Counted from the first letter of the stretch, positions 2,452-21,207 are shown. The stretch: 32,477 bases of DNA from Nitrospirota bacterium (GCA_040757335.1 JBFLXB010000036.1:1-32477); one strand, 5' to 3'. Program-made: numbers and translations. The notes: generated by a model not told the origin, from the letters alone.

Positions 2452-5400
2452 CTACGTCACGGCCCCTCGTATCTGTTGATGAATCGTCTCCGTGGCCGGA
2501 GACGGCGGGATCTGGAGCTGGGCGTGCAGGGTCTCGCGGCAGCGGCGATACGTGGCCAGAGCCTCGGCCCGGCGGCCCAATGTCTGATAGCCCAGCATCA
2601 AGTGCTGGTAGAACGGTTCGACCAAGGGGTCGAGCTCGATGCCACGTTGATAATAGGTCACGGCGCGTTCCCAGTCCTTGCCGCGTTCGCAGCAGCGTCC
2701 CAGCTCGCTCAGTAACGCAACCAGCCGGCCATGGACCTTCTCGCGCCGGCTTAACGCCCAGGCCTCATCGCTCTCCTCCCGCAGAAACGGGCCGGCGTAG
2801 AGCCGAAAGAGCTTTTCCGCAGTGGCACATACCGTCTCGGCGTCCGGCGACGGCTGCTTGAGCGTCGAATCCAGATCTCGAATGAGCCGTTCGACGCTCC
2901 ACAGATCCACCCACACCCGCTTCGGATCCAGCGTGAGTCGTCCGTCCGCGAGGAACACGGTTTCCTCACCGAGCAGCTTCCTCAACCGATGCAACGTGGT
3001 ATCGAACGCTTGCCGGGCTGCATCCCCGTCCGCCTCGGGCCAAAGCGCTTCGGTCAGTTCACTTTGGGCTACGTCCCGCCCACCATGCGCGATCAGGGCT
3101 TTGAGCAGCGCGAGCGGTTTGCCGTGTTGGCTGCGCCGGCCCATCGAGAGGGGTTGATCGCCCCACAGGATCGAGAACCGGCCCAAGGTGTAGACTTTGA
3201 CTGGCCAGGGCCAGGCCTCGATCCCGCGCGCCGATGGTTCCGGCAGCAGATTCCGCTTGCGGATGAGATGGCGGACATAGTCCACCTCGATCCCGTGCTC
3301 CAGGGCGGTGGCGCAGAGCCGCGACATGACTGTGGGCCGCGAGAAAGGCTTGTTCACGTAACCCTGCTCGCGCCCGATCGCCATCGCTCGCCGCAGCGCG
3401 GCAAGCCCGCGCTCGGCCGCGTCCTTGTCCGGTTGTCGATCCAACTTCCGATCCGAGAGATCCAGGTCGATCTGCGCACGAGCTAGGCAGCACTGGTGTT
3501 CGAGGACCATGCTGTTCATAGCGGCCGCAAGGTCAACAACCTGTCCCAGATGCGAGGCGACATCCTCCAGGCGGCCTCGCTCCAGCAGCACCTGAACCAG
3601 CCCGAGTCGGCATTGCGCCTCACTGAAGGGCCCTCCCACTTGGCACGCAATCTCCGTCGCCTGCTTTGCACGCTGAAGCGCCTCCTGAAGATTCCCGACT
3701 AGTATGGCGTGCCAGCTCGCAAGGTGGTGGTAATGACTCGCTTCCAAATTGTTCCCGCTGCGCAGCGCGGCCCTCACTCTATCCAGGTATTCCGCTCCAC
3801 GCTTCACGTCCCCCATGCAGAGCGAACCGTACACCCCCTGGGCCAAGGTCCAGCCGTCAAAGAGATGCGCGCCACTCTCTTCCGCCAGTTCTAGCGTTCT
3901 GTTCACGGTCCGAAGACAGGCCGACAAATCGGCCTTTACCAACCAATTGCGCGTCGCTTCCCACGTCGCCGCGATGATCTTGTTGATGGGCGCAGCGTGC
4001 GGCGACTCCGCCAGCATGAGGATCTCATCGGTCATCGCCTTACCGAATGCGTAGTCCCCGATGTAGGTGGCATAGTGGATTGCGGTCATGGCAACCCGGA
4101 TGCGCAAGTTGATGTCCGTCACGTGCCGGGACGATTCCAGTGCGCGGTCGACCCAACGCCGCAGCCTTGGATGCTGCGGTTGGCGATGGAGCATGGCCAT
4201 GGATGCGCTCGCCGCCACGCGGGCCTCAATATCCGGGGAGGGGAACTCTGGACTGGTCCTCATGCGCTGATCAAGCCACTCGATCCACGAGTCCAACCCG
4301 GTGATGGCTTGCATCGGGAGCCCAATCATGTCGACCGCCGCAGACCAGGCCAACCAGGTTCCCGCTGAATCGTCGGCGGCCTGAAACAACTCGAAGGCCC
4401 TTTCAAAAGAGCGAAGGCCTTCCCTCACCCCGTACGAGAACTGGCAGACCCCGAGCCAGTACAGCAACCACGGCTCGGCCCCGACTAAGTCCTTCGGCAA
4501 TCGGTCGATCCACTCTTGCAGCGTGCGACTGCGGCCCTGTTCCACGAGAACTGGCGCCTGCGTGACGATGATCCGTTGCACCGCGGCCCAGTCACCCGCA
4601 CCAGCGTACAGGTCCACCGCCTCCTCGAGGCGGCCGGATTCTTCGAGAAGCGTCGCGGCGCGCTGGCGAATCCGGCTCAACTCGACTGCGCTGAATCGCT
4701 CCCGCGCCTGAGAGAGGAGAAACTCTCGGAATAAATCGTGGTACCGGTAGATCCGGTCGGTTCCAGGACGTTCCTCGACAAAGTAGTTCGAGCGGCTGAA
4801 GTCCGCGAGGTTCTTCCCCACTTCTCTTGCGCCGGTCAGCCGTTCAGCGATCCCGAGTGTCATGGAGGGCAGGAACGCGGTCCGAAGCAGCATTTCCTGA
4901 ACGCTCCGAGACAACTTCGCGAAGACCTCGCCGGCAAAGTAGTCGAAGACCGACGCAGACATGTTCTGGGCCGGAGATTGCGCATCGCTCGCGACCTTGA
5001 TGTGTTGCAGCATCAAGACGACCCCGGCGGCCCAGCCGTCGGTTTTGGCTTGGATGCATTGCATCGCGTCGTTCGAGAATCGTTTCCCCGCGGTGAGCGA
5101 GATCAGCGCGCGAGTCTCTGGCGGGGTGAGCCGCAGGGCATCCCAATTCAGCACCTGCATCTGTCCGTTGGCGTGGAAGGCGGCCAGGCTTGGCGGCGGG
5201 GCGTTGCGGCTGATCAGAATCACCACGACACCCTCCGGGATCTGAGTCAGCCCTTCGCGCATGACGTCGTGAATCACCGAGTCGGATGGGAGCTCGTGGT
5301 AGTTGTCGAAGACCACGACGGATGGCCGGGGCAATCGCTCGGTCAGCGCCTCGAAATACCGGCGGGTAAACACCGGCAGACCGGGCAGACGATCCGGGGT

Positions 5401-5709
5401 CAGGAGCGGCAGCGGCCGGCGCACGCGGGGCGCCGCCTTTTTGGCGGCTAATCCCAGGTAATAGAACAATGACGCCGGATCGGCATCGCCGGCGTCGAGA
5501 TGATACCAGATGGCTTTGCGCCGGCGAACGGCGAGATAGCTGGAGACCAGCGTGGTCTTGCCGGAGCCTGGAGGCCCATTTACCCAAAGGACACGACGCG
5601 GACCCGGTCGGTCCAACAGGCGAAACAGCCGCGGCCGTTGCAACACTTTCGCAGACACGGGCGGACTGATCTTGGCCAGGCCGCCGAGGTGTTGCCTGAC
5701 ACGGACCAT
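2452..5709 (-). CDS. STAND NTPase-TPR-winged helix-BTAD transcriptional regulator (full length)
   Basis: A 1,085-aa regulator that joins a MalT-type signal-sensing ATPase to a SARP-type DNA-binding end. Walker A is GPPGSGKTT (residues 45-53, K51), Walker B is VVVFDNYHEL (D135), and residues 250-830 are an alpha-helical TPR-like solenoid. An OmpR/PhoB-type winged helix follows from about 836 (VKVYTLGRFSILWGDQPL, then LLKALIAHGGRDV and ALWPEADGDAARQAF), and a BTAD helical domain covers about 935-1080. STAND proteins typically bind an inducer on the solenoid, oligomerise with ATP and then activate transcription; the inducer is unknown. The ATG at 5709 is preceded by GAGGG. The broken copy at 83-1903 lies downstream on the same strand with hicBA between them. 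No target operon with the direct-repeat promoter seen further right is visible next to this copy. Confidence 0.9.
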   Translation of the reverse strand: MVRVRQHLGGLAKISPPVSAKVLQRPRLFRLLDRPGPRRVLWVNGPPGSGKTTLVSSYLAVRRRKAIWYHLDAGDADPASLFYYLGLAAKKAAPRVRRPLPLLTPDRLPGLPVFTRRYFEALTERLPRPSVVVFDNYHELPSDSVIHDVMREGLTQIPEGVVVILISRNAPPPSLAAFHANGQMQVLNWDALRLTPPETRALISLTAGKRFSNDAMQCIQAKTDGWAAGVVLMLQHIKVASDAQSPAQNMSASVFDYFAGEVFAKLSRSVQEMLLRTAFLPSMTLGIAERLTGAREVGKNLADFSRSNYFVEERPGTDRIYRYHDLFREFLLSQARERFSAVELSRIRQRAATLLEESGRLEEAVDLYAGAGDWAAVQRIIVTQAPVLVEQGRSRTLQEWIDRLPKDLVGAEPWLLYWLGVCQFSYGVREGLRSFERAFELFQAADDSAGTWLAWSAAVDMIGLPMQAITGLDSWIEWLDQRMRTSPEFPSPDIEARVAASASMAMLHRQPQHPRLRRWVDRALESSRHVTDINLRIRVAMTAIHYATYIGDYAFGKAMTDEILMLAESPHAAPINKIIAATWEATRNWLVKADLSACLRTVNRTLELAEESGAHLFDGWTLAQGVYGSLCMGDVKRGAEYLDRVRAALRSGNNLEASHYHHLASWHAILVGNLQEALQRAKQATEIACQVGGPFSEAQCRLGLVQVLLERGRLEDVASHLGQVVDLAAAMNSMVLEHQCCLARAQIDLDLSDRKLDRQPDKDAAERGLAALRRAMAIGREQGYVNKPFSRPTVMSRLCATALEHGIEVDYVRHLIRKRNLLPEPSARGIEAWPWPVKVYTLGRFSILWGDQPLSMGRRSQHGKPLALLKALIAHGGRDVAQSELTEALWPEADGDAARQAFDTTLHRLRKLLGEETVFLADGRLTLDPKRVWVDLWSVERLIRDLDSTLKQPSPDAETVCATAEKLFRLYAGPFLREESDEAWALSRREKVHGRLVALLSELGRCCERGKDWERAVTYYQRGIELDPLVEPFYQHLMLGYQTLGRRAEALATYRRCRETLHAQLQIPPSPATETIHQQIRGAVT

Positions 5710-8570: not shown

Positions 8571-8789
8571 GACCAGATCATCGACGTAGGGGAACCGCCC
8601 CCACGCCAAGCTCTCCCCGATTCTGCAGCCGACGACCGCCACGGGTTCTCCGCCGTCAAGGACATAGGCAAACCGGTAGCCGGATGCCTCTTGGCGTCGG
8701 ACTCGGGAGACGAAATCACTGCTAGCCACATGCGGACGCAGCTCGTGCATCACGGCGAAACACGTCGAGGTATCGTCGCATTGAGTCAT
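8571..8789 (-). pseudogene. N-terminal fragment of a GNAT acetyltransferase
   Basis: From an ATG at 8789 the minus strand encodes about 73 residues (FAVMHELRPHV, VRRQEASGYRFAYVLDGGE, SLAWGRFPYVDDLV) closely matching the first half of the GNAT gene at 14079-14520. Similarity ends right after YVDDL, before the acetyl-CoA binding motif RSRGYGAAL, so the catalytic half is absent. The frame continues into about 215 bp (8356-8570; ETHLLPETFPPRPGPTLSDY and on) that I do not recognise and that joins the SRPBCC gene. It should be inactive as an acetyltransferase. Confidence 0.7.
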
Positions 8790-9175: not shown

Positions 9176-12100
9176 ATGGCTCGAAGACATCCCTTACTTG
9201 CCAAAGTCACCCCGCCCAGCTTGCCGCGCATCCTGAATCGGCCGCGGCTCTTTCGAGTCTTGGACCGAGCGCGACAGCGGCCGATCACCTGGATTTGCGC
9301 GCCTCCCGGGTCCGGCAAAACCACGCTGGTCGCCAGCTACGCGCGCTCGCGGAGACTCGCGGTCCTGTGGGACCAGCTCGATGCGGGCGATGCGGACCCC
9401 GCCACGTTCTTTCACTACCTGGGGCTGGCGAGCCGCCAAGCCTCTCCGCGATATCGCAGGCCGCTGCCGCACCTCACGCCGGAGTACCTGCCCGGCCTGG
9501 CGATCTTTGCCAGGCGCTTCTTTGAGGAGGTCTTCGCACGCCTCAAAACGCCGGCGGTGGTCGTGTTCGACAACTATCAGGACGTGCCCGATGACGCGAG
9601 GTTCCACGAGCTGATGCCGCTCGGGCTGAGCGCGATTCCCCACACGGTGTCGGTCGTGGTGCTCAGTCGTCGAGCGCCCCACCCCGCCCTCGGGGCGCTG
9701 CAAGCTCGCCGGACCATGTCGGTGGTGGACGACGAGGCGCTCCGCCTGACCCCGACCGAACTGAGACGCTTGGCCGCCCTGCACATGAAGGGTCGCACCT
9801 CGCGGTCCCGGCGAGACCTTGATCGTCTGTATCAGCAGACCCAGGGATGGTTTGCCGGGGCGGTCTTGTTCCTCGATCCCCATCACGGCCGCTGCGATAC
9901 GGCCGACGGCGAGGGCCGGCCGTCGCGGGAGATCCTGTTCGACTACCTGGCGTCCGAGGCCATGAAGGATCTGGATGCGGACACCCACACGGTGCTGCTC
10001 AAGACCAGTCTCTTGCCGAGCCTCTCGGTCTCAACGGCCCGGGCGCTGACCGGCGTGGACCAGGCCGGAGAGATTCTCGCTCGGCTCCATCGTGCCCGCT
10101 ACTTTACCGAGCGGCGTTCTGATCCCGAACCGACCTATCAATACCACCCCTTGTTTCGGGAGTTTCTGCAGGCACGGGCCGCCACGGTCTACCCCCCCGA
10201 GGAACTGCGCGGTCTGCGCGAGACCGCGGCTCGACTCTTGGAGGGGACCGGGCTGATCGAGGAGGCGGGCGCGCTCTACCAGGAAGCCCGGCAGCACAAC
10301 GGGCTTGTGCGGCTGGCACTCACCCACGCGCCGGCGCTATTTGTCCAAGGCCGATCCGCTCTAATCGAGCAGTGGATCGGCCATTTGCCGTTGCCCTTGG
10401 TTGAGCAGACCCCCTGGCTGCTCTATTGGCGTGCAAACTGCCTCCTGCCCGTCAGCCCGGCCAAGGCGCAGCCGCTCTATATGAGCGCGTACGAGCAGTT
10501 CCAGACGGCCGGAGACCGCGCCGGCGCCCTGCTGGCGTGGTGCGGCGTCGTGGATGCCATCTGGTATGCCTGGGAGGACCTTCCCCAGATGGACCCCTGG
10601 ATCGAGCGATTTGCAACGCTCATGCCGGAAGGCGAGCCCTATCCCTCGCCAGAGATCGAGGCCGCCGTGGCCTGCGCCATGTTTAATGCCCTGTTCTGGA
10701 GACGCCCGGCGTTCGCAACGATTGCGCCCTGGGCGGCGAAGGTCATGGCCTTGCTGGAGAGCGCTCCGGTCCTGACGGTGCAGATGGGGACCACGGTCGT
10801 GGCCTTGGTCAACCACTACACCCACGTGGCGGACCTGGTGAAGGCCGAGCGCGTTCTGAGGTTGGTGGACCACGCCTTGCGCCGCAGTCCGCCGTTGCCG
10901 TTCGTCCGGCTCGCGCGCGAGCAGACCGCAGCGGTCCTCGCCTACATGCACGGCGATGCGGAGCAAAGCGCCCAGACGGTGGTCGGGGCCCTGGAGCTGG
11001 CCAAACAAAGCGGCGTGCCCCTCTGGAACGTGCCGCTCTGCGGCGGCGGATGTCTGGCCGCCCTCATAACCGGTGATCTCGTCGCCGCGCGACGGTACGT
11101 GGACCAGATGCTGGACCAGCCGCCGGAGTTTATCCATCTCTTTCATTCGTGGGCGTTGATGCTGGACAGCATCGTGTCGTGTGAAACGGGAGACCTCCAC
11201 CGGGCGCTTCAGGCTGCCGAGTCGTCCCTCGCGCTCACTGAGCGGGAAGGGCCGTGGCCCGAATCCCTGAGCCGGCTCAGCCTGGCTGTGATCCTTCACC
11301 ATCTCAGGCGGGAGGCAGAGGCGGATGCCCATCTGGCGCGCGCGGCTGCGATCGCAGACGACATGCAGAGTCGAGCCATGGAGCTGCACTATCGAATCGT
11401 CGCCGCCCAGCTCGCGTTCGATCGGCAGGATGATGAAGCCGGGCTGCGGGAGCTGCGCGCCGCCTTCAAGACCAGTGCGGAAACAGGGCTCATGGGCTGG
11501 CAGGTGTTGGCGGGCCCACGGGTCCTCGCCCGCCTCTGCGCCAGGGCCCTTGAGGCCGGGATCGAAACCGATTTTGCCCGCCGGCTTATCACCAGACGGA
11601 AGTTGATGCCGGACGCTACGGCAACCCACCTTGAATCCTGGCCCTGGCCGGTCAAGGTATACACCTTGGGTCGCTTCTCCCTGGTAAGGGACCAGAGGCC
11701 GGTGGCCTTTCGTGGAAAGGCCCAGAAGCGCCCGCTCGAGCTGCTCAAAGCACTCATCGCGCTGGGAGGCCGCGAGGTGGGTGAGGCGCGGATCATTGAG
11801 GCTCTGTGGCCCGAGGCCGAAGGCGACGCGGCCTACTATGCCTACACCATGGCGCTCAAACGGCTGCGGGAACTGCTGGGGAGCCCGGAGGCGGTGCGGC
11901 TTACAGAGCGCAAGCTCACGCTTAACCCGCAGCTCTGCTGGGTGGATATTTGGGCGTTTGAACGCGGGCTTGGCCAGTCCGCTGCCGATCCCATGTGTAT
12001 GGAAACCGCGCTGGCGTTCTATCGCGGGCCGTTTCTTGGAGCCGACGACGCGCCCTGGGCCCTCTCCCCCCGGGAACGCACACGCGCAAAGTTCCTGAAC

Positions 12101-12364
12101 GGCGTTCGCACCCTCGGCGCTCGGTTCGAAGCGCAGCAGCAATGGGCCGAAGCGATCCAGTGCTATCAGCGTGGCCTGCATGTGGATGATCTTGCTGAGG
12201 AGTTCTACCAGCGCCTGATGATCTGCCACCAGCGCCTCGGCCAGCGCGGGGAGGCCCTGTCCGCGTACCAGCGGTGCAAGAACGTCCTGGCGACGCACTT
12301 GGCCGTTGCCCCGTCAGCCGTGACCGAATCGATCCGCGCCGCGCTCACACCACCGTCACAATGA
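9176..12364 (+). CDS. STAND NTPase-TPR-winged helix-BTAD transcriptional regulator (module 1)
   Basis: A 1,062-aa paralog of the regulator at 2452-5709. Walker A is APPGSGKTT (K48), Walker B is VVVFDNYQDV (D132), followed by a long helical TPR-like region. A winged helix then begins at VKVYTLGRFSLVRDQRPV and continues through LLKALIALGGREV and ALWPEAEGDAAYYAY, with a BTAD domain to the end. The ATG at 9176 is preferred over an upstream ATG at 9119 because all paralogs begin only 7-11 residues before the AKI/AKV motif. A direct-repeat promoter, a YIIRIYRR small-protein gene and a lipoprotein gene follow on the same strand. Because SARP-type winged helices bind just such direct repeats, the downstream operon is its likely target. 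The inducer is unknown. Confidence 0.9.
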   Translation: MARRHPLLAKVTPPSLPRILNRPRLFRVLDRARQRPITWICAPPGSGKTTLVASYARSRRLAVLWDQLDAGDADPATFFHYLGLASRQASPRYRRPLPHLTPEYLPGLAIFARRFFEEVFARLKTPAVVVFDNYQDVPDDARFHELMPLGLSAIPHTVSVVVLSRRAPHPALGALQARRTMSVVDDEALRLTPTELRRLAALHMKGRTSRSRRDLDRLYQQTQGWFAGAVLFLDPHHGRCDTADGEGRPSREILFDYLASEAMKDLDADTHTVLLKTSLLPSLSVSTARALTGVDQAGEILARLHRARYFTERRSDPEPTYQYHPLFREFLQARAATVYPPEELRGLRETAARLLEGTGLIEEAGALYQEARQHNGLVRLALTHAPALFVQGRSALIEQWIGHLPLPLVEQTPWLLYWRANCLLPVSPAKAQPLYMSAYEQFQTAGDRAGALLAWCGVVDAIWYAWEDLPQMDPWIERFATLMPEGEPYPSPEIEAAVACAMFNALFWRRPAFATIAPWAAKVMALLESAPVLTVQMGTTVVALVNHYTHVADLVKAERVLRLVDHALRRSPPLPFVRLAREQTAAVLAYMHGDAEQSAQTVVGALELAKQSGVPLWNVPLCGGGCLAALITGDLVAARRYVDQMLDQPPEFIHLFHSWALMLDSIVSCETGDLHRALQAAESSLALTEREGPWPESLSRLSLAVILHHLRREAEADAHLARAAAIADDMQSRAMELHYRIVAAQLAFDRQDDEAGLRELRAAFKTSAETGLMGWQVLAGPRVLARLCARALEAGIETDFARRLITRRKLMPDATATHLESWPWPVKVYTLGRFSLVRDQRPVAFRGKAQKRPLELLKALIALGGREVGEARIIEALWPEAEGDAAYYAYTMALKRLRELLGSPEAVRLTERKLTLNPQLCWVDIWAFERGLGQSAADPMCMETALAFYRGPFLGADDAPWALSPRERTRAKFLNGVRTLGARFEAQQQWAEAIQCYQRGLHVDDLAEEFYQRLMICHQRLGQRGEALSAYQRCKNVLATHLAVAPSAVTESIRAALTPPSQ

Positions 12365-12448
12365 CCATTGCGCGGTTGGCCTTTGGCCCCTGATCTTTCT
12401 CCGCGCCGTTCTCCTCGCTGCGTCCAGGATCCCCAGGCCAGTTGATCT

Positions 12449-12481
12449 GTTAGTTATCCGTTAGTCCTTGTTCGCTAACCT
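12449..12481 (+). promoter_or_regulatory. SARP-like 7-4-7 direct repeats and -10 box, module 1
   Basis: GTTAGTT (12449-12455) and GTTAGTC (12460-12466) are separated by 4 bp, giving an 11-bp period of one helical turn. Nine bp further lies TAACCT (12476-12481), a -10-like hexamer, and no good -35 box exists. SARP regulators are known to bind 7-bp repeats at 11-bp period about 8 bp before the -10 box. The site at 19830-19862 has the same spacing throughout and a near-identical heptamer. The predicted start lies just before the small gene at 12501. Confidence 0.65.
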
Positions 12482-12500
12482 CTTCAACAGGATCGTCAGG

Positions 12501-12695
12501 ATGGAGAGCTATATCATTCGCATTTACCGCCGCGACGCAAACCAAACGACCCGCGTCGAAGGGATCGTTGAACACGTGGGCACGCAGCAACACCACGCGT
12601 TTCACAGCATGCAGGAGCTGGTGGAGGCGCTCAGCGCGCCCCGCTCTAAGCGGAGCAAAGAAAAGAACAGGCCGCCTTCAACCGGCGTGGCTTGA
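12501..12695 (+). CDS. Small YIIRIYRR-motif protein (module 1)
   Basis: A 64-aa protein of unknown function. It begins MESYIIRIYRR, continues VEGIVEHVGTQQHHAFHSMQ and ends in a basic tail rich in K, R and S. It is clearly related to the protein at 20165-20347: YIIRIYRR, a following T, G.xE.VGT, AFH and spaced leucines are shared, while the tails differ. The short strand-strand-helix look suggests a small cytoplasmic fold; there is no signal peptide or membrane segment. The ATG at 12501 is chosen because the conserved part begins there and CAGG precedes it. It lies 18 nt before the lipoprotein gene and about 20 nt after the predicted promoter, so it is first in that operon. Confidence 0.75.
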   Translation: MESYIIRIYRRDANQTTRVEGIVEHVGTQQHHAFHSMQELVEALSAPRSKRSKEKNRPPSTGVA

Positions 12696-12713
12696 AGAAA
12701 CTTGGAGGAGATC

Positions 12714-14060
12714 ATGGCAATACGAGGCAGGACACAGAGACGACACGGAGGAGTTTTCCTCATAGTCATGTTCGGGCTAATCAGTGCGCTGGCAGCCTGT
12801 AGCAGCGATGAGGATGGCAGTGGGCCCCCTGCGGCGCTGCCAGTGAACAAGGTCGAGCAGGTGGTCAGTGCCGCCGGCGGTACCGTCACGCACGGCAGCG
12901 GCGCGCAGGTTGTGGTGCCTCAGGGCGCGCTGGCCGGGCCGGTCACCATCGGCATCGAAGAGGTGGCGGCCAACTCCGCACCGACACTGCCGGCCGGTGT
13001 CAACGCCGTGGGCGCGACGTTTGCGGTCACGCCCCACGGCCAGACCTTTTTGCAAGACGTGACCGTGACGATTCCGTTCGATCCGGCACAGGTCCCTGCA
13101 GGCGTCCCGTTGAGCCTGCTCAAGACCATGAACCGCGCGGACGGGCCGTGGGAAGAGGTCGCAGGGGCCACAGCCGTGGGGAGCACTCTGAACGCCCAGT
13201 CTTCGGGCTTCTCACACTACGTTGTGACGGTCCGGCAGGTCGTGATCAATCCGAGCAGCCTAGCCGTAGTCTCAGGGGAAAGGGCCACCTTTCACGTCAC
13301 CGTGCTCAACATTGATTCACCATTCACCATCCGGTGGCAACGCTCCACCAACGGTGGCGCGTCTTTTATTGACCTTGCCGCCACCGGCAGAAGTTACACC
13401 ACGGGCCCAACTACATTGAATGACGACGGCGATCAGTACCGGGTGGTCGTGACCAACGACAGCGGCAGTATCACATTCGCAACAAGCCTGGCGGCGACAT
13501 TGAGTGTGTCGCCGAACTCAGTCGCGCCAGACATTACCCAGCATCCTGGCAGCCAAACGGTAACCGTCGGGGCGAGTGCAAGCTTCAGCTGTGAGGCAAG
13601 CGGCACCGCTGTGCAGTACCAGTGGCAGATTTCCTCCGATGGCGGAGTGACCTTTGTCGATATTCAAGGAGCGGCCTTTGCGAACTACGTGTTCACGGTG
13701 CAGGCCAGCAACAACGGCGAACGTTACCGCTGCCGGGCATCGAACTCGGCCGGTACCGCGACAAGCAATACGGCAACGTTGACGGTTGTCATCCCTTCTG
13801 GCACGGAAATCCTTTCGCTGTCAATCGTCGGCGATGGGTTCGGTGTCGTGACCTATAACCCGCCAGTCGAGGGCTGCTCCAAGGCGATCGGCCCGACGAC
13901 GTGTGAACGGGTGTTCAACGGTAACACGATCGTCATCCTGACGCCAACGGCGTACTCGGGTTCCACCTTCGGCGGCTGGACCGGTTGTGATTCCGTCAGC
14001 GGCAACGATTGTTCGGTCACGATGACCGGCAGCCGCGCGGTGTCGGCGGTGATCAACTGA
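12714..14060 (+). CDS. Ig-like repeat lipoprotein
   Basis: A 448-aa exported lipoprotein. The lipobox LAAC puts the lipidated cysteine at residue 29, after a basic start and a hydrophobic stretch. Next comes a ZU5-like region (GGTVTHGSGAQVVVPQGAL, then ATFAVTPHGQTF). Two Ig-like domains follow, marked by WQRSTNGGASFIDL...YRVVVTNDSG and WQISSDGGVTFVDI...YRCRASNSAG. The C-terminal part has the InlB-B-like pattern GFGVVTYNPP, then FGGWTGCDSVSGNDCSVTM. Such proteins sit on the outer membrane or cell surface and often bind partners. The ATG at 12714 is supported by GGAGGAG 3 nt upstream. It is the second gene of the predicted operon controlled from 12449-12481. Confidence 0.85.
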   Translation: MAIRGRTQRRHGGVFLIVMFGLISALAACSSDEDGSGPPAALPVNKVEQVVSAAGGTVTHGSGAQVVVPQGALAGPVTIGIEEVAANSAPTLPAGVNAVGATFAVTPHGQTFLQDVTVTIPFDPAQVPAGVPLSLLKTMNRADGPWEEVAGATAVGSTLNAQSSGFSHYVVTVRQVVINPSSLAVVSGERATFHVTVLNIDSPFTIRWQRSTNGGASFIDLAATGRSYTTGPTTLNDDGDQYRVVVTNDSGSITFATSLAATLSVSPNSVAPDITQHPGSQTVTVGASASFSCEASGTAVQYQWQISSDGGVTFVDIQGAAFANYVFTVQASNNGERYRCRASNSAGTATSNTATLTVVIPSGTEILSLSIVGDGFGVVTYNPPVEGCSKAIGPTTCERVFNGNTIVILTPTAYSGSTFGGWTGCDSVSGNDCSVTMTGSRAVSAVIN

Positions 14061-14078
14061 ACATGTCCGCAGCGACCG

Positions 14079-14520
14079 TCAATCCCCGGAGTCTATCCGT
14101 GACGTCAACACCTTCCGGAAGTGCACACTCGCCCGCTCCATCCCTTCCCGCTCGTAAAAGCGATGCGCTTCCGTGCGCTGGACTCCGGAGTCGAGGTGCA
14201 CCTGCTGACAGCCTGCCGTTGCCGCAAGGTCCACTAACCACGACAACAGTGCAGCGCCGTAGCCGCGGGAACGCTGACTTGAGCTGGTGCAGATCATCGA
14301 CGTAGAGAAACCGCCCCCATGCGAGGTTCTCCCCGATTCGGTACCCCGCAACAGCCACGGGCTCGCCGCCTTCGAGGACATAGGCAAGCCGGTAACCGGA
14401 TGCCTCTTGGCGTCGCAGGCGGAACACGAAATCGTGTTCTGCCACATGCGGGCGCAGCTCGCGCATCACGGGGAAACACCGGGCAATTTCTTCGTCCGAT
14501 TTCGCCGGTTTGATGTCCAT
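14079..14520 (-). pseudogene. GNAT N-acetyltransferase with a central frameshift
   Basis: The first half (ATG at 14520; IARCFPVMRELRPHV, RRQEASGYRLAYVLEGGE, LAWGRFLYVDDL) and the second half in another frame (QRSRGYGAALLSWLVDLA, HLDSGVQRTEAHRFYEREGM) together make a normal GNAT of about 147 aa, including the acetyl-CoA loop RSRGYGAAL. A 13-nt stretch near 14270-14285 where a multiple of three is expected causes the shift, so neither frame alone is active. A sequencing error cannot be excluded. The gene lies 22 nt after the small unknown gene on the same strand and converges with the lipoprotein gene. Confidence 0.75.
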
Positions 14521-14542
14521 ACGCCGGAGGGCTGACCGCGGG

Positions 14543-14797
14543 TTAGCGCTTCGCCTTGGGAATCACGAGCTTCAGCGCGGTGTGCGTCTCTGAAAGACCC
14601 ACCACCTTGGTGGCCACCAGCCCCGCGTCGCGAGCGACGGCCATCACGCCGTGCCCTTGGAGCTTCGGTCCTCGAACCGACACATGCAATGCGCCTCCGA
14701 GCCCATGCCCGTTCCCCTTGAGTTGACCGCCCATTCCTGTGACGAGGGGATAGATATCGCAGATCACCGGCTGCGCCGTCAACCCGGCCTCGCTCAT
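14543..14797 (-). CDS. Small conserved-looking protein of unknown function
   Basis: An 84-aa frame from an ATG at 14797 with a strong AGGAGAAGG ribosome site. It is glycine-rich: GMGGQLKGNGHGLGGALHV, then KLQGHGVMAVARDAGLVAT and a basic end PKAKR. There is no signal peptide or membrane helix. I do not recognise a family. It precedes the frameshifted GNAT gene by 22 nt and could share its transcript. The good ribosome site and balanced composition argue that it is a real gene. Confidence 0.5.
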   Translation of the reverse strand: MSEAGLTAQPVICDIYPLVTGMGGQLKGNGHGLGGALHVSVRGPKLQGHGVMAVARDAGLVATKVVGLSETHTALKLVIPKAKR

Positions 14798-14850
14798 GCC
14801 CCTTCTCCTGCCTCGGCGCACGCGCGCCGGTACCGCCCGTCTCGCTTGTG

Positions 14851-14879
14851 TTGACAGCCGCCTCGCGCCGTGCTACAGA
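14851..14879 (+). promoter_or_regulatory. Putative promoter of the module 2 regulator
   Basis: A consensus TTGACA (14851-14856) lies 17 bp before TACAGA (14874-14879). The -10 box is weak. Transcription from about 14886 would give a leader near 205 nt before the ATG at 15092. Confidence 0.45.
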
Positions 14880-14952
14880 TCGCGTTCACATTCCTGTGTG
14901 GACGCCATTCCCTCCTGCCAGGATGGCCGCCGGTCACTGATCACCGTCGAAC

Positions 14953-14994
14953 CCCACGGGGTGGTTCGGTGTCCGCAAACACCCGTCCCGTGGG
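14953..14994 (+). other. Long-stem structure in the regulator's leader
   Basis: CCCACGGG (14953-14960) pairs with CCCGTGGG (14987-14994), and inside it GGTGT (14968-14972) pairs with ACACC (14979-14983). It lies in the predicted long leader of the 15092 regulator. No known riboswitch is recognised. It is not followed by a T-run. Confidence 0.4.
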
Positions 14995-15091
14995 CCGACC
15001 GGATACGCGTGGCGATGCTGAGACCGACCGATGACGTGGCGGAACAGCAGGGGGTGCAGGGCAACACGTGGCCCCGAGGCTTCGCGGTGAG

Positions 15092-18000
15092 ATGACGCCT
15101 CCGCGCGCGTCCGCCAAGATCACCCGCCCCCACACGCCGCGGGCATTGCCGCGCCTTCGCCTGTTCGAGCAACTCGACCAGGGCCGCGCGCAGCGCCTGA
15201 CCTGGATCGCGGCGCCGCCGGGCGCGGGCAAGACCACGCTGGTCTGCAGCTATCTGGACGCCCGCAAGCTCCCCTGCCTGTGGTATCAAATCGATGCCGA
15301 CGATCGTGATCCGGCGGCGTTCTTTTACCACCTGGGAGTCGCCGTGGCCCAGGCCGCGCCGCGGTATCGCCGCCCCTTGCCCGCGCTCACCCCGGAATAT
15401 CTGTTGGGCATCACGACCTTCACCCGCAACTTTTTCCGCGAAGCGGCCCGGCGGCTCCATCCTCCGCATGTGCTGGTGTTCGACAACCTCCAAGAGGTGG
15501 ACCCCGCGGCGCCGCTCTATGAGGTGCTGCGTGAAGGACTGAGCGAGCTCCCGGACGGCCTGCAGGGGATCCTCATCAGTCGCAGTGAGCCGGCGGCGAA
15601 CTTTGCCCGGATGCGGGTCTCCGGGCACCTCGCGGTCCTTGATTGGGACGCGTTGCGGCTGCGGCCGGAGGAGACGAGGCCGTTCCTGGAGCGTCTCGAT
15701 CACCGTGGAGCGCTTCCAGTAGAGGTGGCGACGCGCCTGCACGAGCAGTGCGCGGGCTGGGCGGCGGGGCTGATTCTGCTGCACGAGGGGGTGACAAAGG
15801 AAACGCCGGGGCACGCGGTGGTCGATGCCGCGTCGGCCCAGCGCACGTTCGACTACTTTGCGACGGAAGTCTTTGCGCGCCGACAGCCTGCGGTCAAGGA
15901 GCTGCTCATGCTGACCGCGCTCTTTCCGAGCTTCACCGCCACGATGGCGGCGCGGATCAGCGGCTATCGCCAGGCAGACTCCTGGCTCAATGATCTGGTG
16001 CAGAGCCACCACTTCACCGAGCGCCGCGCCGGGACCGGCGCCGACTACCAGTACCACCCGTTGTTTCGCAGCTTCCTGCTCGCACAAGCGCAGAAGACCT
16101 GGGGCCCGGCCGAGCTCGCCCGCCGCCGTCACAGGGCCGCGATCCTGCTGGAGGACTCCGGTCGCGCCGAGGAGGCGCTCGCCCTCTATCTCGACACGAA
16201 AGACTGGGGCGCCGCAACCCGGCTGATTCTGCGCCATGCGCCGACGATCCTCGCAGCAGGACGCTTCCTCACGCTGGGCGCGGCCCTCCGCAGACTTCCG
16301 GCCGCTGAACTCGAAGCGGAGCCCTGGCTCTCGTACTGGCTCGGCATGTGTTCGCTGGCGATCAATCCCGGAGGGGCGCTGACCTTGTTCGACGCGGCCT
16401 TTGAGCGCTTCGAGCGCGACCGGAACGCCACCGGAGCGTACCTTGCCTGGGCCGGCGCGGCGGACGCCATTGTCTTTCAGGCGACCGACTATCGCCAGTT
16501 TGCCCCGTGGCTGGAACGCCTGGATCGTCTGATTGAGGCCTATCCCGAGTTTCCCACTAGCGAGATCGAAGCACGAGTGGCGGGCGGCGCGATCGCCGCC
16601 GGGATGTGGCACCGCCCCGCGCACCCCTCCTTTGTCCGCTGGCTGCAACGCGCCGCCACCCTGGTCCGCACCTGCGACCATCCAGCCACCTGCGCGCGCC
16701 TGGTGTTTCACTGGCTGGTGAGTTGGTTCTGGTACGGGACCGATCGTGATAGCGCGGCCGCCGCAGAGATGTTCGACGCTGCCGCGAGGCTGACGAGGCG
16801 TCTGACCGACGCCCCGTTTGAGCACATCCTGTTGACGATAACGGAAACGCACCGGCACATCCTTGCCGGGGAGACTGATCGCGGACTCGCGGCCACGCAG
16901 GCTGCGTTGGACATCAGCCAGCGCAGCGGCGTGCATTTGATCGATCCGGTGCTCATCGGCGGGGGGACTTGGGCGTGCCTTGCCGCGGGCCGGCTCGCTG
17001 CGGCAGACACGCTCTTGCAGCGGATGCAGGAGCGTATTGAGGTCGTTGCCTCGAATAAGATGGATCGCGACTTTTATTGGCACCTGTACGCCTGGCGGGC
17101 CGCGCTGGCCGGAGACTTCCGGGCGGCGCTGCACCGCCTTGCCTCCTCCCTGCAGATCCATGAGACCTTGCAGGCGACACCCACCCTCACCAACACACTC
17201 CTCAACCAGGCGCTCTACCAGGTGGAGCTGGGCGACCTCGATGCGGCGCGCGCGAGCCTGGCCCGCGCCGACGACCTGATGCAGGGGACACCGGATGGAT
17301 GCTTACGCCATCAGCGCCTCCTCGTAGCTGCGCAACTTGCCCGCGCCGAGCAGCGGGAGGCTGAGGCCTGTGAACTCCTCGGGGAGGCGGTCCGAACCAA
17401 GGTCGCGAACAACTTCTTTGTTCTCCCCGCACCGCTCGCCCGGCTCTGCGCCCTCGCCCTGAAGCGAGACATTGAGGCCGACGCCGCGCGCACCCTGATC
17501 CGCAGGCTGCGATTGACACCGCCTGGCGGGATGCAGCCGGAGACCTGGCCGTGGCCCGTCAAGGTCTACACGCTGGGACGGTTTAGCCTGCTCTTGGATG
17601 GAACCCCTGCCCGGTTTTCCGGGAAGATCCAGAAGAAACCGCTTGAACTGCTGAAGGCCCTCATTGCGTTCGGCGGACGGGACGTGAGCGAGACTCGGTT
17701 GACCGAAGCCCTCTGGCCCGAGGCCGAAGGCGACGCGGCCCATCGTGCCCTGGATACCACCCTGCACCGGCTGCGTAAGCTGCTCGGATCCGATGAGGCC
17801 GTCATGTTACAGGAGGGACGGCTCACCCTGGACCCTCGCTACTGTTGGGTGGACGTCTGGGCGTTCGACCGGCTGACGGAAACAACGCGTGCCAAACTCG
17901 CCAAAGGACCAAGCGTGCCGGAGGAGGAAATCGTCGATCTCTCCCAAAAGGCGCTGACTCTTTACCAGGGATCGTTTCTCAGCCAGGAGAGCGAGATTCC

Positions 18001-18301
18001 GTGGACCCTCTCCGAGCGTGAGCGCCTTCGGAGCCGGTTTCTGCGCTATTTGGAAGCGCTGGGGAGGCACTGGGAGCAGACCGGACAATGGGAACGAGCG
18101 GTGGAGTGCTACCTAAAAGGTCTGGACATCGATCACCTGGCCGAGGGCATCTACCAACGCCTGATGACCGCCTACCACCGTCTGGGCCGCCGAGCCGAGG
18201 CCATGGGGGTCTACCAACGCTGTCGCAACACCCTTTCCGCCCTCCTGGGGGTCGAACCGTCGTCGCAGACCGAGGGGATTTATCGGAAAATCATTTCCTG
18301 A
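15092..18301 (+). CDS. STAND NTPase-TPR-winged helix-BTAD transcriptional regulator (module 2)
   Basis: A 1,069-aa paralog of the other regulators. Walker A is APPGAGKTT (K47) with alanine in place of the usual serine; Walker B is VLVFDNLQEV. The helical solenoid follows, then the winged helix (VKVYTLGRFSLLLDGTPARF, LLKALIAFGGRDV, ALWPEAEGDAAHRAL) and the BTAD domain. The ATG at 15092 matches the paralogs' short lead before AKI; a GTG at 15068 in the same frame would add 8 residues and has a G-rich upstream stretch, so it remains possible. Downstream, beyond an antisense ATPase gene, lie a direct-repeat promoter, a YIIRIYRR gene and a PEP-CTERM gene, the presumed target operon. Confidence 0.9.
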   Translation: MTPPRASAKITRPHTPRALPRLRLFEQLDQGRAQRLTWIAAPPGAGKTTLVCSYLDARKLPCLWYQIDADDRDPAAFFYHLGVAVAQAAPRYRRPLPALTPEYLLGITTFTRNFFREAARRLHPPHVLVFDNLQEVDPAAPLYEVLREGLSELPDGLQGILISRSEPAANFARMRVSGHLAVLDWDALRLRPEETRPFLERLDHRGALPVEVATRLHEQCAGWAAGLILLHEGVTKETPGHAVVDAASAQRTFDYFATEVFARRQPAVKELLMLTALFPSFTATMAARISGYRQADSWLNDLVQSHHFTERRAGTGADYQYHPLFRSFLLAQAQKTWGPAELARRRHRAAILLEDSGRAEEALALYLDTKDWGAATRLILRHAPTILAAGRFLTLGAALRRLPAAELEAEPWLSYWLGMCSLAINPGGALTLFDAAFERFERDRNATGAYLAWAGAADAIVFQATDYRQFAPWLERLDRLIEAYPEFPTSEIEARVAGGAIAAGMWHRPAHPSFVRWLQRAATLVRTCDHPATCARLVFHWLVSWFWYGTDRDSAAAAEMFDAAARLTRRLTDAPFEHILLTITETHRHILAGETDRGLAATQAALDISQRSGVHLIDPVLIGGGTWACLAAGRLAAADTLLQRMQERIEVVASNKMDRDFYWHLYAWRAALAGDFRAALHRLASSLQIHETLQATPTLTNTLLNQALYQVELGDLDAARASLARADDLMQGTPDGCLRHQRLLVAAQLARAEQREAEACELLGEAVRTKVANNFFVLPAPLARLCALALKRDIEADAARTLIRRLRLTPPGGMQPETWPWPVKVYTLGRFSLLLDGTPARFSGKIQKKPLELLKALIAFGGRDVSETRLTEALWPEAEGDAAHRALDTTLHRLRKLLGSDEAVMLQEGRLTLDPRYCWVDVWAFDRLTETTRAKLAKGPSVPEEEIVDLSQKALTLYQGSFLSQESEIPWTLSERERLRSRFLRYLEALGRHWEQTGQWERAVECYLKGLDIDHLAEGIYQRLMTAYHRLGRRAEAMGVYQRCRNTLSALLGVEPSSQTEGIYRKIIS

Positions 18302-18308
18302 GCCCTTA

Positions 18309-18327
18309 GACGACGGCCAACGTCGTC
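18309..18327. terminator. Stem-loop between convergent genes
   Basis: GACGACG (18309-18315) pairs with CGTCGTC (18321-18327) around a 5-nt loop. It fills the 30-bp gap between the regulator stop and the ATPase stop. There is no T-run on either strand, so it is a weak or factor-assisted terminator at best. Confidence 0.4.
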
Positions 18328-18331
18328 CGCG

Positions 18332-19573
18332 TTACTTGCCAGGCCCCTCCCACAGCTCACTCATCGGCACGGCCCGCAAGGTCTCACCCATAGGCAGCGC
18401 GGTCTCACCGAGGTACAACAGCACGCCGCGCACGAAGTTTTTCCCGGCCGCCTCGGCCAGCGCTTCGAGGCCGGCGAAGTCGCTCCGGCTCACGGTCGCA
18501 GCGGCCTTGACCTCGATACCCACCAGTCTGCCGCCCGGCGCCTCCAGGACAATGTCCACTTCTCGCCCGGCGGCGGTGCGGAGGTGGAACAGCGAGACCA
18601 ATTGCCGGCTCCAGCCGAGCTGCTTGCGCAACTCCTGCAGCACAAATGATTCGAGCAGGTGGCCAAGCTCAGGTGACTGCGCAAGCCGCTCCGGGTCCGT
18701 GTCTCCACGGAGATGAGCGGCAAGACCTGTATCGACCAGATGAATCTTGGGGGACTTGACGAAACGCTTCGCCACATTGGTGGACCACGCCGGCAACGGT
18801 TGAAGGATGAACGTCGCCTCAAGCAGAGTGAGATACCTCCGGAGCGTGGAGTGCGTGATCCCCGAGGAGCGTGACAGCTCGGACATGTTCAAGAGCGCGC
18901 TCGACCGCGCCGCCAGCAGACCGAGCAACCGTGGCATGTCGGTCAGCCCCTCGATGTGCGCGAGATCTCGCACGTCACGCTGCAGCAGGGTTGCCACGTA
19001 GGCTTTGAACCAGGCCGCGCGCCGCTCCGAGGTCTCGCGCGTCAGGGCCTCCGGATATCCGCCGGCCATCAGACGCCGGCATACGTCCAGTCGGTCCACC
19101 GCGCGGCGGTGGAGGGCCGCGGGTTCACGGGAAAATAGCGCGTCGGCAAAACGCTCGGTGCGGCCGGCAATTTCGTCCTGCGAAAGGGGCAGAAGCGACA
19201 GGATTTCCATGCGTCCGGCCAATGATTCCGACAACCTGGGAAGAAGGAGGACATTCGCCGAGCCCGTGAGGAGAAAACGCCCGGGACGCCGCCTGCGGTC
19301 CACCTCTAGCTTGATCGCCGGAAACAGCTCTGGCGCCTTCTGCGCCTCATCGATCACCACCAGGCCGTCCCCGCCGCGCACCAGGGCCATGGGATCCGAG
19401 CGCGCCGTCCCGAGCACGGCGGGGTCGTCAAGGGTGACGTACACTCCGCCGCGCTCGTCCGCCACCTGCTGCGCGAGCGTCGTCTTCCCGGTCTGCCGCG
19501 CGCCGTTCAGCAGAACGACCGGAGAATCCGAGAGAGCGGCCCGAAGCGCGGTTTCGATATTCCTCCGATACAT
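18332..19573 (-). CDS. AAA_14/DUF4143 ATPase
   Basis: A 413-aa protein of the widespread AAA_14-DUF4143 family and of usual length. Walker A is NGARQTGKTT (K30), Walker B is LVVIDEAQ (D75, E76), and the sensor strand is FLLTGSANV (near 103). The DUF4143 part covers about 190-360 with TLLQRDVRDLAHIEG and SGITHSTLRRYLTLLE, a winged-helix-like segment. The C-terminus carries GREVDIVLE followed by GIEVKA, a PD-(D/E)XK nuclease-like pattern. The function is unknown; members are scattered in accessory regions and are thought to be mobile or defence-linked. It sits antisense between the module 2 regulator and its presumed target operon. A leaderless-type promoter lies immediately upstream. Confidence 0.88.
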   Translation of the reverse strand: MYRRNIETALRAALSDSPVVLLNGARQTGKTTLAQQVADERGGVYVTLDDPAVLGTARSDPMALVRGGDGLVVIDEAQKAPELFPAIKLEVDRRRRPGRFLLTGSANVLLLPRLSESLAGRMEILSLLPLSQDEIAGRTERFADALFSREPAALHRRAVDRLDVCRRLMAGGYPEALTRETSERRAAWFKAYVATLLQRDVRDLAHIEGLTDMPRLLGLLAARSSALLNMSELSRSSGITHSTLRRYLTLLEATFILQPLPAWSTNVAKRFVKSPKIHLVDTGLAAHLRGDTDPERLAQSPELGHLLESFVLQELRKQLGWSRQLVSLFHLRTAAGREVDIVLEAPGGRLVGIEVKAAATVSRSDFAGLEALAEAAGKNFVRGVLLYLGETALPMGETLRAVPMSELWEGPGK

Positions 19574-19579
19574 AGCGAT

Positions 19580-19608
19580 ATATTAGCCATCTCATGGCGA
19601 ATTTACAA
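19580..19608 (-). promoter_or_regulatory. Leaderless-type promoter of the ATPase gene
   Basis: On the minus strand TTGTAA (19608-19603) and TAATAT (19585-19580) are 17 bp apart. The -10 box ends 6 nt before the ATG at 19573, so the message should begin at the start codon. Confidence 0.55.
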
Positions 19609-19829
19609 TCAGAATGCTTGCCTTGTACGCTCATCGGTTAACCGGACACGTTTCTTTTGGATCGGAGCCAGCGGAACGGCTGGCTGGGGAGCTAAACCAG
19701 ACGGAAGAGATTGACCGGAGCGTCGGAAAAACGGAGACAGGGAGACGGGGGAGAAGGGATAAGACCGGTTTTCCGTTTCACCGATTTCCAACGCAAGTTT
19801 AATTCTTCCCCTCATTTTCCCCTCAATCG
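19609..19829. other. Non-coding stretch with inverted repeats
   Basis: I see no gene here. It contains a perfect palindrome CGGTTAACCG (19635-19644), a hairpin AGCCAGC-6 nt-GCTGGCT (19666-19685) and a purine-rich run around 19725-19760. None has a clear role; the hairpin has no T-run on either strand. Confidence 0.4.
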
Positions 19830-19862
19830 GTAAGTAACCTGTAAGTTTCTCTCTGTTATTCT
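19830..19862 (+). promoter_or_regulatory. SARP-like 7-4-7 direct repeats and -10 box, module 2
   Basis: GTAAGTA (19830-19836) and GTAAGTT (19841-19847) are separated by 4 bp. Nine bp later lies TATTCT (19857-19862). Heptamer length, spacer, period and distance to the -10 box are identical to those at 12449-12481, and the heptamers differ at one main position (GTTAGT against GTAAGT). No -35 box is present, as expected for an activator-dependent promoter. Confidence 0.65.
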
Positions 19863-19935
19863 CGCGCCCAGTCACACTGGCCGCGGCTTGCCGGCGATCC
19901 CAGCCGGTAGCGAGGTGGCCGTCATTGAACGATGT

Positions 19936-19948
19936 CGTGACCGTCACG
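19936..19948. promoter_or_regulatory. Palindrome in the module 2 leader
   Basis: CGTGAC-C-GTCACG is a perfect 6-bp inverted repeat about 75 bp after the direct-repeat promoter. It could be an operator for a second regulator; there is no other support. Confidence 0.3.
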
Positions 19949-20045
19949 GATGTGGTTTTAGGAGGCGCTGTAGGCGGCTGGACCTGGGTTATTACCCAAC
20001 TGGAGTGAGCGTGCGGACACTCTACGGCCAAACACGGGAGGAACG

Positions 20046-20117
20046 ATGAACCCGAGAATCCACAGAAGCACGGTCACACCCCAAGGCAGCTCGTCGTTCA
20101 CGTTCGCACGCCCCTAG
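20046..20117 (+). CDS. Possible 23-aa leader peptide
   Basis: An ATG with a near-ideal ribosome site (GGAGGA, 3 nt before the ATG) opens 23 codons beginning MNPRIHRSTVTPQG and ending FARP. It lies within the ~300-nt leader between the module 2 promoter and the YIIRIYRR gene. The peptide has no recognisable motif. Module 1 has only a ~13-nt leader and no counterpart, so this is either a control element specific to module 2 or chance. Confidence 0.35.
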   Translation: MNPRIHRSTVTPQGSSSFTFARP

Positions 20118-20164
20118 GTGGTTGGACAGATCCCGTGGAACTCTCATTGAAGAAGCATCCGCCC

Positions 20165-20347
20165 ATGGACAGTGACACCTACATCATTCGAATCTATCGC
20201 CGCAACAAGGAACGTCCGACGAGTCTAGTGGGGGTGGCCGAGCAGGTCGGGACGAAAGAACAACGAGCATTCCACGATCTGGACGGGCTCTTGGCGATTC
20301 TGACCTCATCGGAAACCCGCGTGCATCTAAATAAAGAAGGAGGGTAG
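20165..20347 (+). CDS. Small YIIRIYRR-motif protein (module 2)
   Basis: A 60-aa protein of unknown function related to that at 12501-12695: MDSDTYIIRIYRR, then LVGVAEQVGTKEQRAFHDLD and GLLAIL. It has no export signal. The ATG at 20165 is preferred because it places the conserved motif near the N-terminus as in the paralog; a GTG at 20135 in frame would add 10 residues. Its stop lies 2 nt before the PEP-CTERM start, and the AAGGAGGG that serves the next gene is inside its last codons, so the two are tightly coupled. Conservation of position in both modules suggests that it works with the regulator or with the exported protein. Confidence 0.75.
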   Translation: MDSDTYIIRIYRRNKERPTSLVGVAEQVGTKEQRAFHDLDGLLAILTSSETRVHLNKEGG

Positions 20348-20349
20348 AC

Positions 20350-21207
20350 ATGTCTAGACATCTTGGCTGGTCGAGGCTCAGTGCTTCATTGGCGGCTGGG
20401 GCGATCGTGTGCGTTGCGCAGGCCGCCAATGCCGTACCGGTGTCGGTCATCGGTGGCTTTACGTCGTTTTCGGGGGTAGTTGGGGCTGGGGGGTCGTTCG
20501 TAACGACCATCAACGGAAGCGTGGTCTGTCCTGAGTCGGGATGCGACACGACCTTTGGCGATGATTCCTTCCCATTCACGTCGATACCCCCATTCACGTC
20601 ACCGATATCCACGGTGGAGTTTGGCAACTCAACGTTGTCCGGGTTCTCCGGAACCACGCCCGTCTATACGCCCCAAACACCCAATCTGCTCAGCTTCGCA
20701 CCGGCTGCGCCGCAAGATGTGATCGCAGGGCAGGAGTTTCTGCTCGGAACCTTTACCTACGCGAACGGGATCTGGTTCACCGACCCGACCTTTGGATTTT
20801 CGTTAACCACGGTCTCATCCGATCCCGCGCTCAACGGACAGGTGTTCTCAGATTCGCTGAGACTAACGATCACGCCCAACGACTTTGTGAACCAGACACC
20901 GGATCAGAACGCGGACTTCATCTCCTTCCTCGGTCGCCCGGACCTAGGTAGTGCGCGCGCCTATGAGCTCGCCGATAGTCCGACGGGCAGTAACCTCATG
21001 ACCTTCGACTTCTATGGCCGGATCGGTTCGTTGATTCCCACCCGATTCGACAATGCCGCAGGCGGCGGATTTCTGGACCCCGGCGTCGCGATCGAACCTA
21101 CGCCGAGGGCCTCGGTGCCGGAACCAGGCACATTCACGTTGATGCTATCCGGTCTTGTCGGCGTGTTGGCGTACCGACGGACGATCTGCAGGGGCGCGTT
21201 GGGCTGA
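20350..21207 (+). CDS. PEP-CTERM sorted exported protein
   Basis: A 285-aa protein with a signal peptide (probable cleavage after ANA at residue 28) and a C-terminal sorting signal: VPEPG at 256-260, a hydrophobic helix to about 274, then YRR. The PEP-CTERM signal is recognised by exosortase, which cuts near it during transfer to the surface or exopolysaccharide. Eight extra residues follow the arginines, slightly more than usual. The middle (FTYANGIWFTDPTFGFSL, FSDSLRLTITPN) resembles choice-of-anchor type beta domains found with PEP-CTERM signals, but this is tentative. The start is fixed by AAGGAGGG and by coupling to the small gene. No exosortase gene lies in the window. Confidence 0.88.
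   Translation: MSRHLGWSRLSASLAAGAIVCVAQAANAVPVSVIGGFTSFSGVVGAGGSFVTTINGSVVCPESGCDTTFGDDSFPFTSIPPFTSPISTVEFGNSTLSGFSGTTPVYTPQTPNLLSFAPAAPQDVIAGQEFLLGTFTYANGIWFTDPTFGFSLTTVSSDPALNGQVFSDSLRLTITPNDFVNQTPDQNADFISFLGRPDLGSARAYELADSPTGSNLMTFDFYGRIGSLIPTRFDNAAGGGFLDPGVAIEPTPRASVPEPGTFTLMLSGLVGVLAYRRTICRGALG

Follow-up and report, generated by a model that had tools for sequence, protein, structure and literature searches.

The window analysed here, 32,477 nucleotides that make up one contig of the 3.56-Mb genome of a Nitrospirota bacterium (GCA_040757335.1 JBFLXB010000036.1:1-32477), carries two large STAND-BTAD regulator genes, and raises the question of whether each of them belongs to a cassette that switches on its own surface protein. 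An original prediction, made from the sequence alone, held that each regulator is followed on the same strand by a direct repeat, a related gene for a protein of ~60 residues (the YIIRIYRR protein) and a gene for an exported protein. All of these elements are present, and we confirmed two complete regulator/operator/small-gene/exported-gene cassettes, all on the + strand (Table 1). The predicted layout holds in that both sets are complete; the second is looser than described, with regulator 2 and operator 2 lying 1.5 kb apart and an opposite-strand DUF4143 ATPase gene between them.

We consider it probable that each cassette is a one-component signal-to-surface switch. The MalT-like nucleotide-binding oligomerization domain (NOD) and the long tetratricopeptide repeat (TPR) sensor would keep the regulator off until a ligand binds, as we infer from the MalT family; in STAND proteins, ligand binding at the sensor opens the NOD, after which the protein multimerizes. 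The C-terminal SARP domain would then bind two tandem 11-bp repeats that take the place of the -35 element, and would recruit RNA polymerase to the -10 element, a step for which the geometry is observed and the recruitment is modeled on AfsR. The operon would thus be switched on, with the YIIRIYRR protein made first and a usually exported, often anchored protein made next. Because residues of the recognition helix appear to read the cassette-specific repeat bases 7-10, paralogous cassettes within one cell could be insulated from each other.

The architecture of the regulators is consistent with this scheme. Both have ~1,065 residues, in the order MalT-like NOD, TPR region and C-terminal winged helix/BTAD (SARP), and the Walker A residues G44, G46 and K47 are invariant among the regulators, which places them, with NOD and TPR-type sensor, among the MalT-like STAND proteins. 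In regulator 2, Pfam places Trans_reg_C at residues 854-910 and BTAD at 928-1075, the OmpR-type winged helix followed by BTAD that characterizes a SARP. Sequence searches of the PDB matched residues 8-411 to the MalT structure 8bob (E 1.1e-26) and residues 843-1067 to the AfsR SARP structure 8hvr (E 1.5e-8). The AlphaFold2 (AF2) model of regulator 2 has a predicted local distance difference test score (pLDDT) of 88, and Foldseek matched it to MalT, the STAND protein 6mfv, AfsR and EmbR, with a TM score of 0.77 to the AfsR SARP. The PDB sequence and fold searches thus confirmed the regulator as a chimera of MalT and AfsR parts. We also tried a reading as anti-phage defence (STAND-type, Avs and others), for which the PADLOC models gave generic weak TPR/ATPase matches alone, and rejected it.

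To follow the arrangement beyond the window, we scanned 84,980 genomes, one per species, for the small protein. The scan yielded 59 loci, in Nitrospirota, Pseudomonadota and Desulfobacterota-type bacteria, and bore out the expectation of the original prediction, in that most homologues come immediately after a STAND-BTAD gene and a tandem repeat of 11 bp. Of the 56 loci whose small gene could be read, 45 are preceded on the same strand by a STAND-BTAD or BTAD regulator, within 750 bp in 34 of them; at 5 of the remaining 11, a regulator stands elsewhere in the examined stretch. Adjacency by chance would be expected at well below one percent, because of the 20 Pfam BTAD matches in the window's genome we read only about ten as genuine regulators. 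A profile search that did not depend on the YIVRIYRR motif turned up homologues in 46 of 396 genomes from the phylum and in 12 of 277 from a second class; of the 27 newly found loci, 16 have a regulator no more than 1.5 kb upstream and 13 have the exact operator core. The link between regulator and small protein, as judged from these neighbourhoods, is strong but not exclusive, since several loci have neither regulator nor operator. A search of plasmids gave matches at chance level only. Close relatives point to the class Nitrospiria for the window's genome: the cassette at L006, in a genome of that class, shares its small protein with L055 (Nitrospira sp. RSF48).

The repeats of the original prediction, described there as 7-4-7, are real and consist of two 11-bp units. 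Upstream of the small genes we found the consensus ATCYGTAAGTN-ATCYGTAAGTN, two tandem 11-bp units, scoring at least 14 of 20 in 44 of 58 upstream regions (one spurious match excluded) as against ~4% of shuffled regions. Near-perfect repeats at an offset of 11 occur in 37 of the 58 regions, compared with 2-7 regions at offsets 7-10 and 12-16. With the repeats as the sole anchor for aligning the 44 promoters, a -10 hexamer TAnnnT fell at position 32 in 24 of them and at any other position in 0-4. The dominant offset of 11 and the -10 element nine bp past the 22-mer identify a SARP-type operator, with the repeats in the place of the -35 element; the published rule for SARP promoters has 11-bp direct repeats of which the last (3') lies ~8 bp from the -10 element (PMC10936776). 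At three loci (L068, L069 and L105) the small genes are preceded by two copies of CTTCCGGTTAC, a perfect 11-bp repeat of another sequence in unchanged geometry. For small gene 2 we also tried a structured-leader reading, which is unsupported because the 300-nt leader folds no better than shuffles; no RNA families were found between positions 8 and 24 kb in the window.

With up to 3 mismatches allowed, the 21-bp consensus has exactly two sites in the whole 3.56-Mb genome, both in the window cassettes, and a reversed-pattern control has none. This bears on the possibility that the two sets are no more than adjacent paralogues, with the small open reading frame (ORF) and the repeats incidental and the regulators controlling distant genes. 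The STAND regulators are indeed paralogous, and acetyltransferase-like gene remnants at 8574-8763 and 14290-14479, one 5' of each regulator in the same orientation, are 83% identical in DNA, so that the flanks look as if duplicated together. Against it, order, operator and spacing are kept across phyla and the operator is unique to the cassettes in this genome, and we regard this explanation as very improbable. In 33 other genomes the operator gave 22 sites versus 1 in the control; 16 of the 22 precede a small-protein gene with a regulator behind, among them the site of a cassette, L135 (G276:C38), that had escaped the scan for the small protein. Three others of the 22, at L129, L134 and L137, directly precede genes for exported proteins. 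Neither window regulator has an operator site 5' of it, and autoregulation through the same operator was rejected. At L163 and L165 (G267:C54:7395 and 10885), an operator variant ATCYGTATGC stands before both a STAND-BTAD gene and its lipoprotein target, an apparent case of autoregulation, and at L048 (G000:C2:165456) a short BTAD gene lies behind TGTAAGAGGTTTGTAAGAC and TATAAG, an 11-bp repeat promoter of another type.

We then compared the operator bases with the regulators by mutual information across the C-terminal 300 residues of the regulators, in which 251 columns could be tested (columns numbered from the ORF at 15068; the helix at 880-898 of the model is numbered from 15092). The two highest-ranking columns, 896 and 897, and the fifth, 900, belong to the recognition helix. 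In a set of 50 regulator-operator pairs, base 9 is G in all 31 whose residue 896 is D, E or N and a base other than G in 17 of the 19 with another residue there; base 7 is A in 24 of the 25 pairs with His at 900. These counts are not independent, and they reduce to just 2 phylogenetically independent contrasts on well supported branches. Arg at 896 goes with C at base 9 in all 6 such loci found by their operator. In the window, regulator 1 pairs the helix M-A-L-K with GTTAGT, as does L055, though its Thr with G makes it one of two departures from the rule for 896; regulator 2 pairs D-T-T-L-H with GTAAGT. The predicted regulator-operator link is well supported, because operator bases 7 and 9 track residues of the recognition helix, also in cassettes found by their operator. 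Two further regulators of the window's genome, 2452 and C20:1135, share the D-T-T-L-H helix but lack a nearby operator of their own, and may therefore cross-talk to operator 2. In one genome that holds both L056 and L086, a second small gene that lacks a nearby regulator has the same operator variant (ACCCT/AATTT) as a complete cassette, which suggests that one regulator may act in trans on both operons.

When 270 genomes of the class were scanned blind, with operator core and -10 element as the query, there were 21 matches versus 2 in controls. Nine of the 21 lie directly behind a STAND-BTAD gene, and eight of these nine sets have no small protein; several of the genes 3' of these operators start with a lipoprotein or other export signal. 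The window's genome itself has such a regulator/operator/target set at C2:120770. Since the sets found in this way mostly lack the small protein, the core of the system is regulator, operator and target, with the small protein marking a large subset. The claim of a self-contained cassette thus survives in part: operator specificity tracks the helix of the neighbouring regulator, and regulator/operator/exported-gene sets without the small protein exist.

Several observations, in addition to the few independent contrasts noted above, weigh against a uniform switch in which the small protein and an exported output are fixed parts. The expectation that the small protein would not occur without a regulator agrees with the 16 regulator-bearing loci among the 27 new ones; it fails at several of the 27, which have neither regulator nor operator, and at one PilZ fusion without a regulator, and overall a minority of small-protein loci have neither element nearby. 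Small protein 3 of the window's genome (G000:C20:16737-16937; L004 8738-8938) stands in another arrangement, without this operator directly upstream; the order there is exported-exported-small-BTAD, and the BTAD protein is short and lacks a NOD. NOD-less regulators of ~650 aa and ~312 aa also occur beside small-protein genes, and because these regulators retain the small protein, it need not act on the NOD. Finally, outputs are not always exported: they include a sigma factor (L076, with L070 and L080 looking similar), a PilZ fusion (L058) and a reductase (L101). Export features are nevertheless enriched, with a lipobox in 28% of outputs versus 5.7% of control ORFs and a PEP-like C-terminus in 16% versus 2.5%. 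Output 2 has the PEP motif, hydrophobic stretch and basic end of a PEP-CTERM/exosortase substrate, with a PF07589 match above the cut-off.

Small proteins 1 and 2 are 39% identical over 49 aa (E 2e-14); the protein has ~60 residues and no export signal, and R9, Y11, R12, R13, G23 and F36 are invariant. AF2 predicts a beta-beta-beta-alpha fold for small protein 2 (mean pLDDT 83, core >90), with the invariant R-x-Y-R-R on a strand. No family was matched in Pfam, NCBIfam and PDB profile searches, and a fold search with the model had no significant match (best E 1.3). The small-protein gene keeps the first place in operons with different outputs: a lipoprotein, a PEP-CTERM protein, the L076 sigma factor and the L101 reductase. 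Because this position is constant while the output gene varies, the small protein may act at the switch or promoter rather than with any single output, and we tentatively propose that it is a cytoplasmic modulator, giving feedback or serving as an adaptor on regulator or promoter.

It could instead be part of the output, a cytoplasmic helper that makes, chaperones or exports the neighbouring surface protein, with the regulator merely switching the pair on. In most cassettes the small gene is co-oriented and closely spaced with the gene for the exported protein, and the regulator/operator/exported-gene sets without the small protein imply that the switch does not need it. We nevertheless think this explanation unlikely, in that a constant, first-placed protein accompanies unrelated outputs (lipoproteins, PEP-CTERM proteins, very large proteins, a sigma factor and a reductase). 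Homologues of the small protein also form the N-terminal domain of PilZ proteins in L058 and L085, one of which belongs to a cassette that has both regulator and operator; together with the R-x-Y-R-R strand, this would fit a module linked to a nucleotide or second messenger (such as cyclic di-GMP) that couples the cassette to biofilm signalling. There are just two such fusions, and the fold search matched no known binder, which makes this reading less likely still than that of an output helper.

The modulator reading of the small protein has a precedent among known systems. MgrB, a 47-aa small protein of the PhoP regulon that inhibits PhoQ (PMC8404706), shows that a small protein made under a regulator can feed back on it; MgrB, however, is a membrane protein acting on a histidine kinase, and we claim no sequence relation. 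The closest parallel is AfsR-afsS of Streptomyces, which shares the STAND-type SARP, a 22-bp operator of two 11-bp direct repeats beside the -10 element, and a direct target, afsS, that encodes a very small protein of 63 aa (PMC10936776, PMC6988585). AfsR, however, has its SARP domain at the N-terminus, followed by NOD and TPR, whereas the window regulators have the reverse order of NOD, TPR and SARP and so do not share the AfsR architecture. AfsS steers antibiotic genes, and the window small protein, which matches no Pfam or NCBIfam family, heads an operon with a surface protein; the carriers of the window type are not actinomycetes, and their outputs are mostly surface proteins.

MalT, the STAND activator of the maltose regulon, matches the window regulators over the N-terminal ~410 residues in sequence and fold (8bob), but MalT and the other LAL regulators end in a LuxR-type helix-turn-helix, in place of which the window regulators have a SARP domain and a SARP-type operator. 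EmbR and other NOD-less SARP regulators share the winged helix and BTAD fold (2fez/2ff4) and, unlike the window regulators, have no NOD or TPR sensor array. For the EmbR type we know of no small protein or exported target in this form. A search of the open literature on BTAD with PEP-CTERM, Geobacter, Nitrospira or MalT gave no description of the cassette. The logic of the cassette is that of AfsR-afsS; the reversed domain order, the family-less small protein and the surface-protein outputs set it apart. Environmental bacteria of several phyla thus seem to have used such cassettes again and again to turn on surface proteins, in an arrangement that appears not to have been described before.

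Table 1. Positions of the cassette features, counted from the first letter of the window
Feature	Position	Strand	Remarks
Regulator 1	9176..12364	+	ATG start 9176, ORF open from 9119; Pfam BTAD 1.2e-19
Regulator 1, N-terminal half			NCBIfam MalT model 4.9e-49
Recognition helix of regulator 1, DAAYYAYTMALKRLRELL	11825..11878	+	Class paired with GTTAGT operators, also L055
Operator 1, ATCTGTTAGTT ATCCGTTAGTC	12445..12466	+	Tandem 11-bp repeats; 20/20 consensus positions; 0 mismatches (genome scan)
-10 element TAACCT	12476..12481	+	9 bp past operator 1
Small protein 1 gene	12501..12695	+	64 aa, MESYIIRIYRR...
Output gene 1, exported lipoprotein with ZU5 and Ig-like domains	12714..14060	+	Pfam Ig_3 8.7e-14, ZU5 2.9e-4; lipobox LAAC
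Regulator 2, architecture as regulator 1	15092..18301	+	ATG start 15092, ORF open from 15068; BTAD 8.7e-27
Recognition helix of regulator 2, DAAHRALDTTLHRLRKLL	17732..17785	+	Class paired with GTAAGT operators
DUF4143 ATPase gene	18332..19573	opposite	Between regulator 2 and operator 2
Operator 2, ATCGGTAAGTA ACCTGTAAGTT	19826..19847	+	2 mismatches to consensus
-10 element TATTCT	19857..19862	+	9 bp past operator 2
Small protein 2 gene	20165..20347	+	60 aa, MDSDTYIIRIYRR...
Output gene 2, exported PEP-CTERM protein with choice-of-anchor K domain	20350..21207	+	PF07589 2.8e-5; NF038131 2.9e-10

Elsewhere in the window, two more tandem STAND paralogues lie on the minus strand (83-1903 and 2452-5709, 74% identical over 1.6 kb), the first without its C-terminal SARP part within the contig. 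At 28874-31426 there is a long repetitive open frame with strong internal DNA repeats of 0.4-0.7 kb, up to 98% identical.

These results provide a function-level hypothesis for a class of large "BTAD domain" regulators present across uncultured bacteria, together with a precise operator from which the targets of a regulator can be predicted from sequence and a first recognition code that relates residues of the helix to bases of the operator. They also bring forward an unnamed family of small proteins. It is conceivable, though we put this more cautiously than the modulator role itself, that the YIIRIYRR protein is a new, phylum-crossing small co-regulator of STAND-SARP switches, and that the cassette and its helix-to-repeat code together form a portable, insulated one-component selector of surface proteins. 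The system offers a route to how environmental bacteria choose among their PEP-CTERM and lipoprotein surface proteins.

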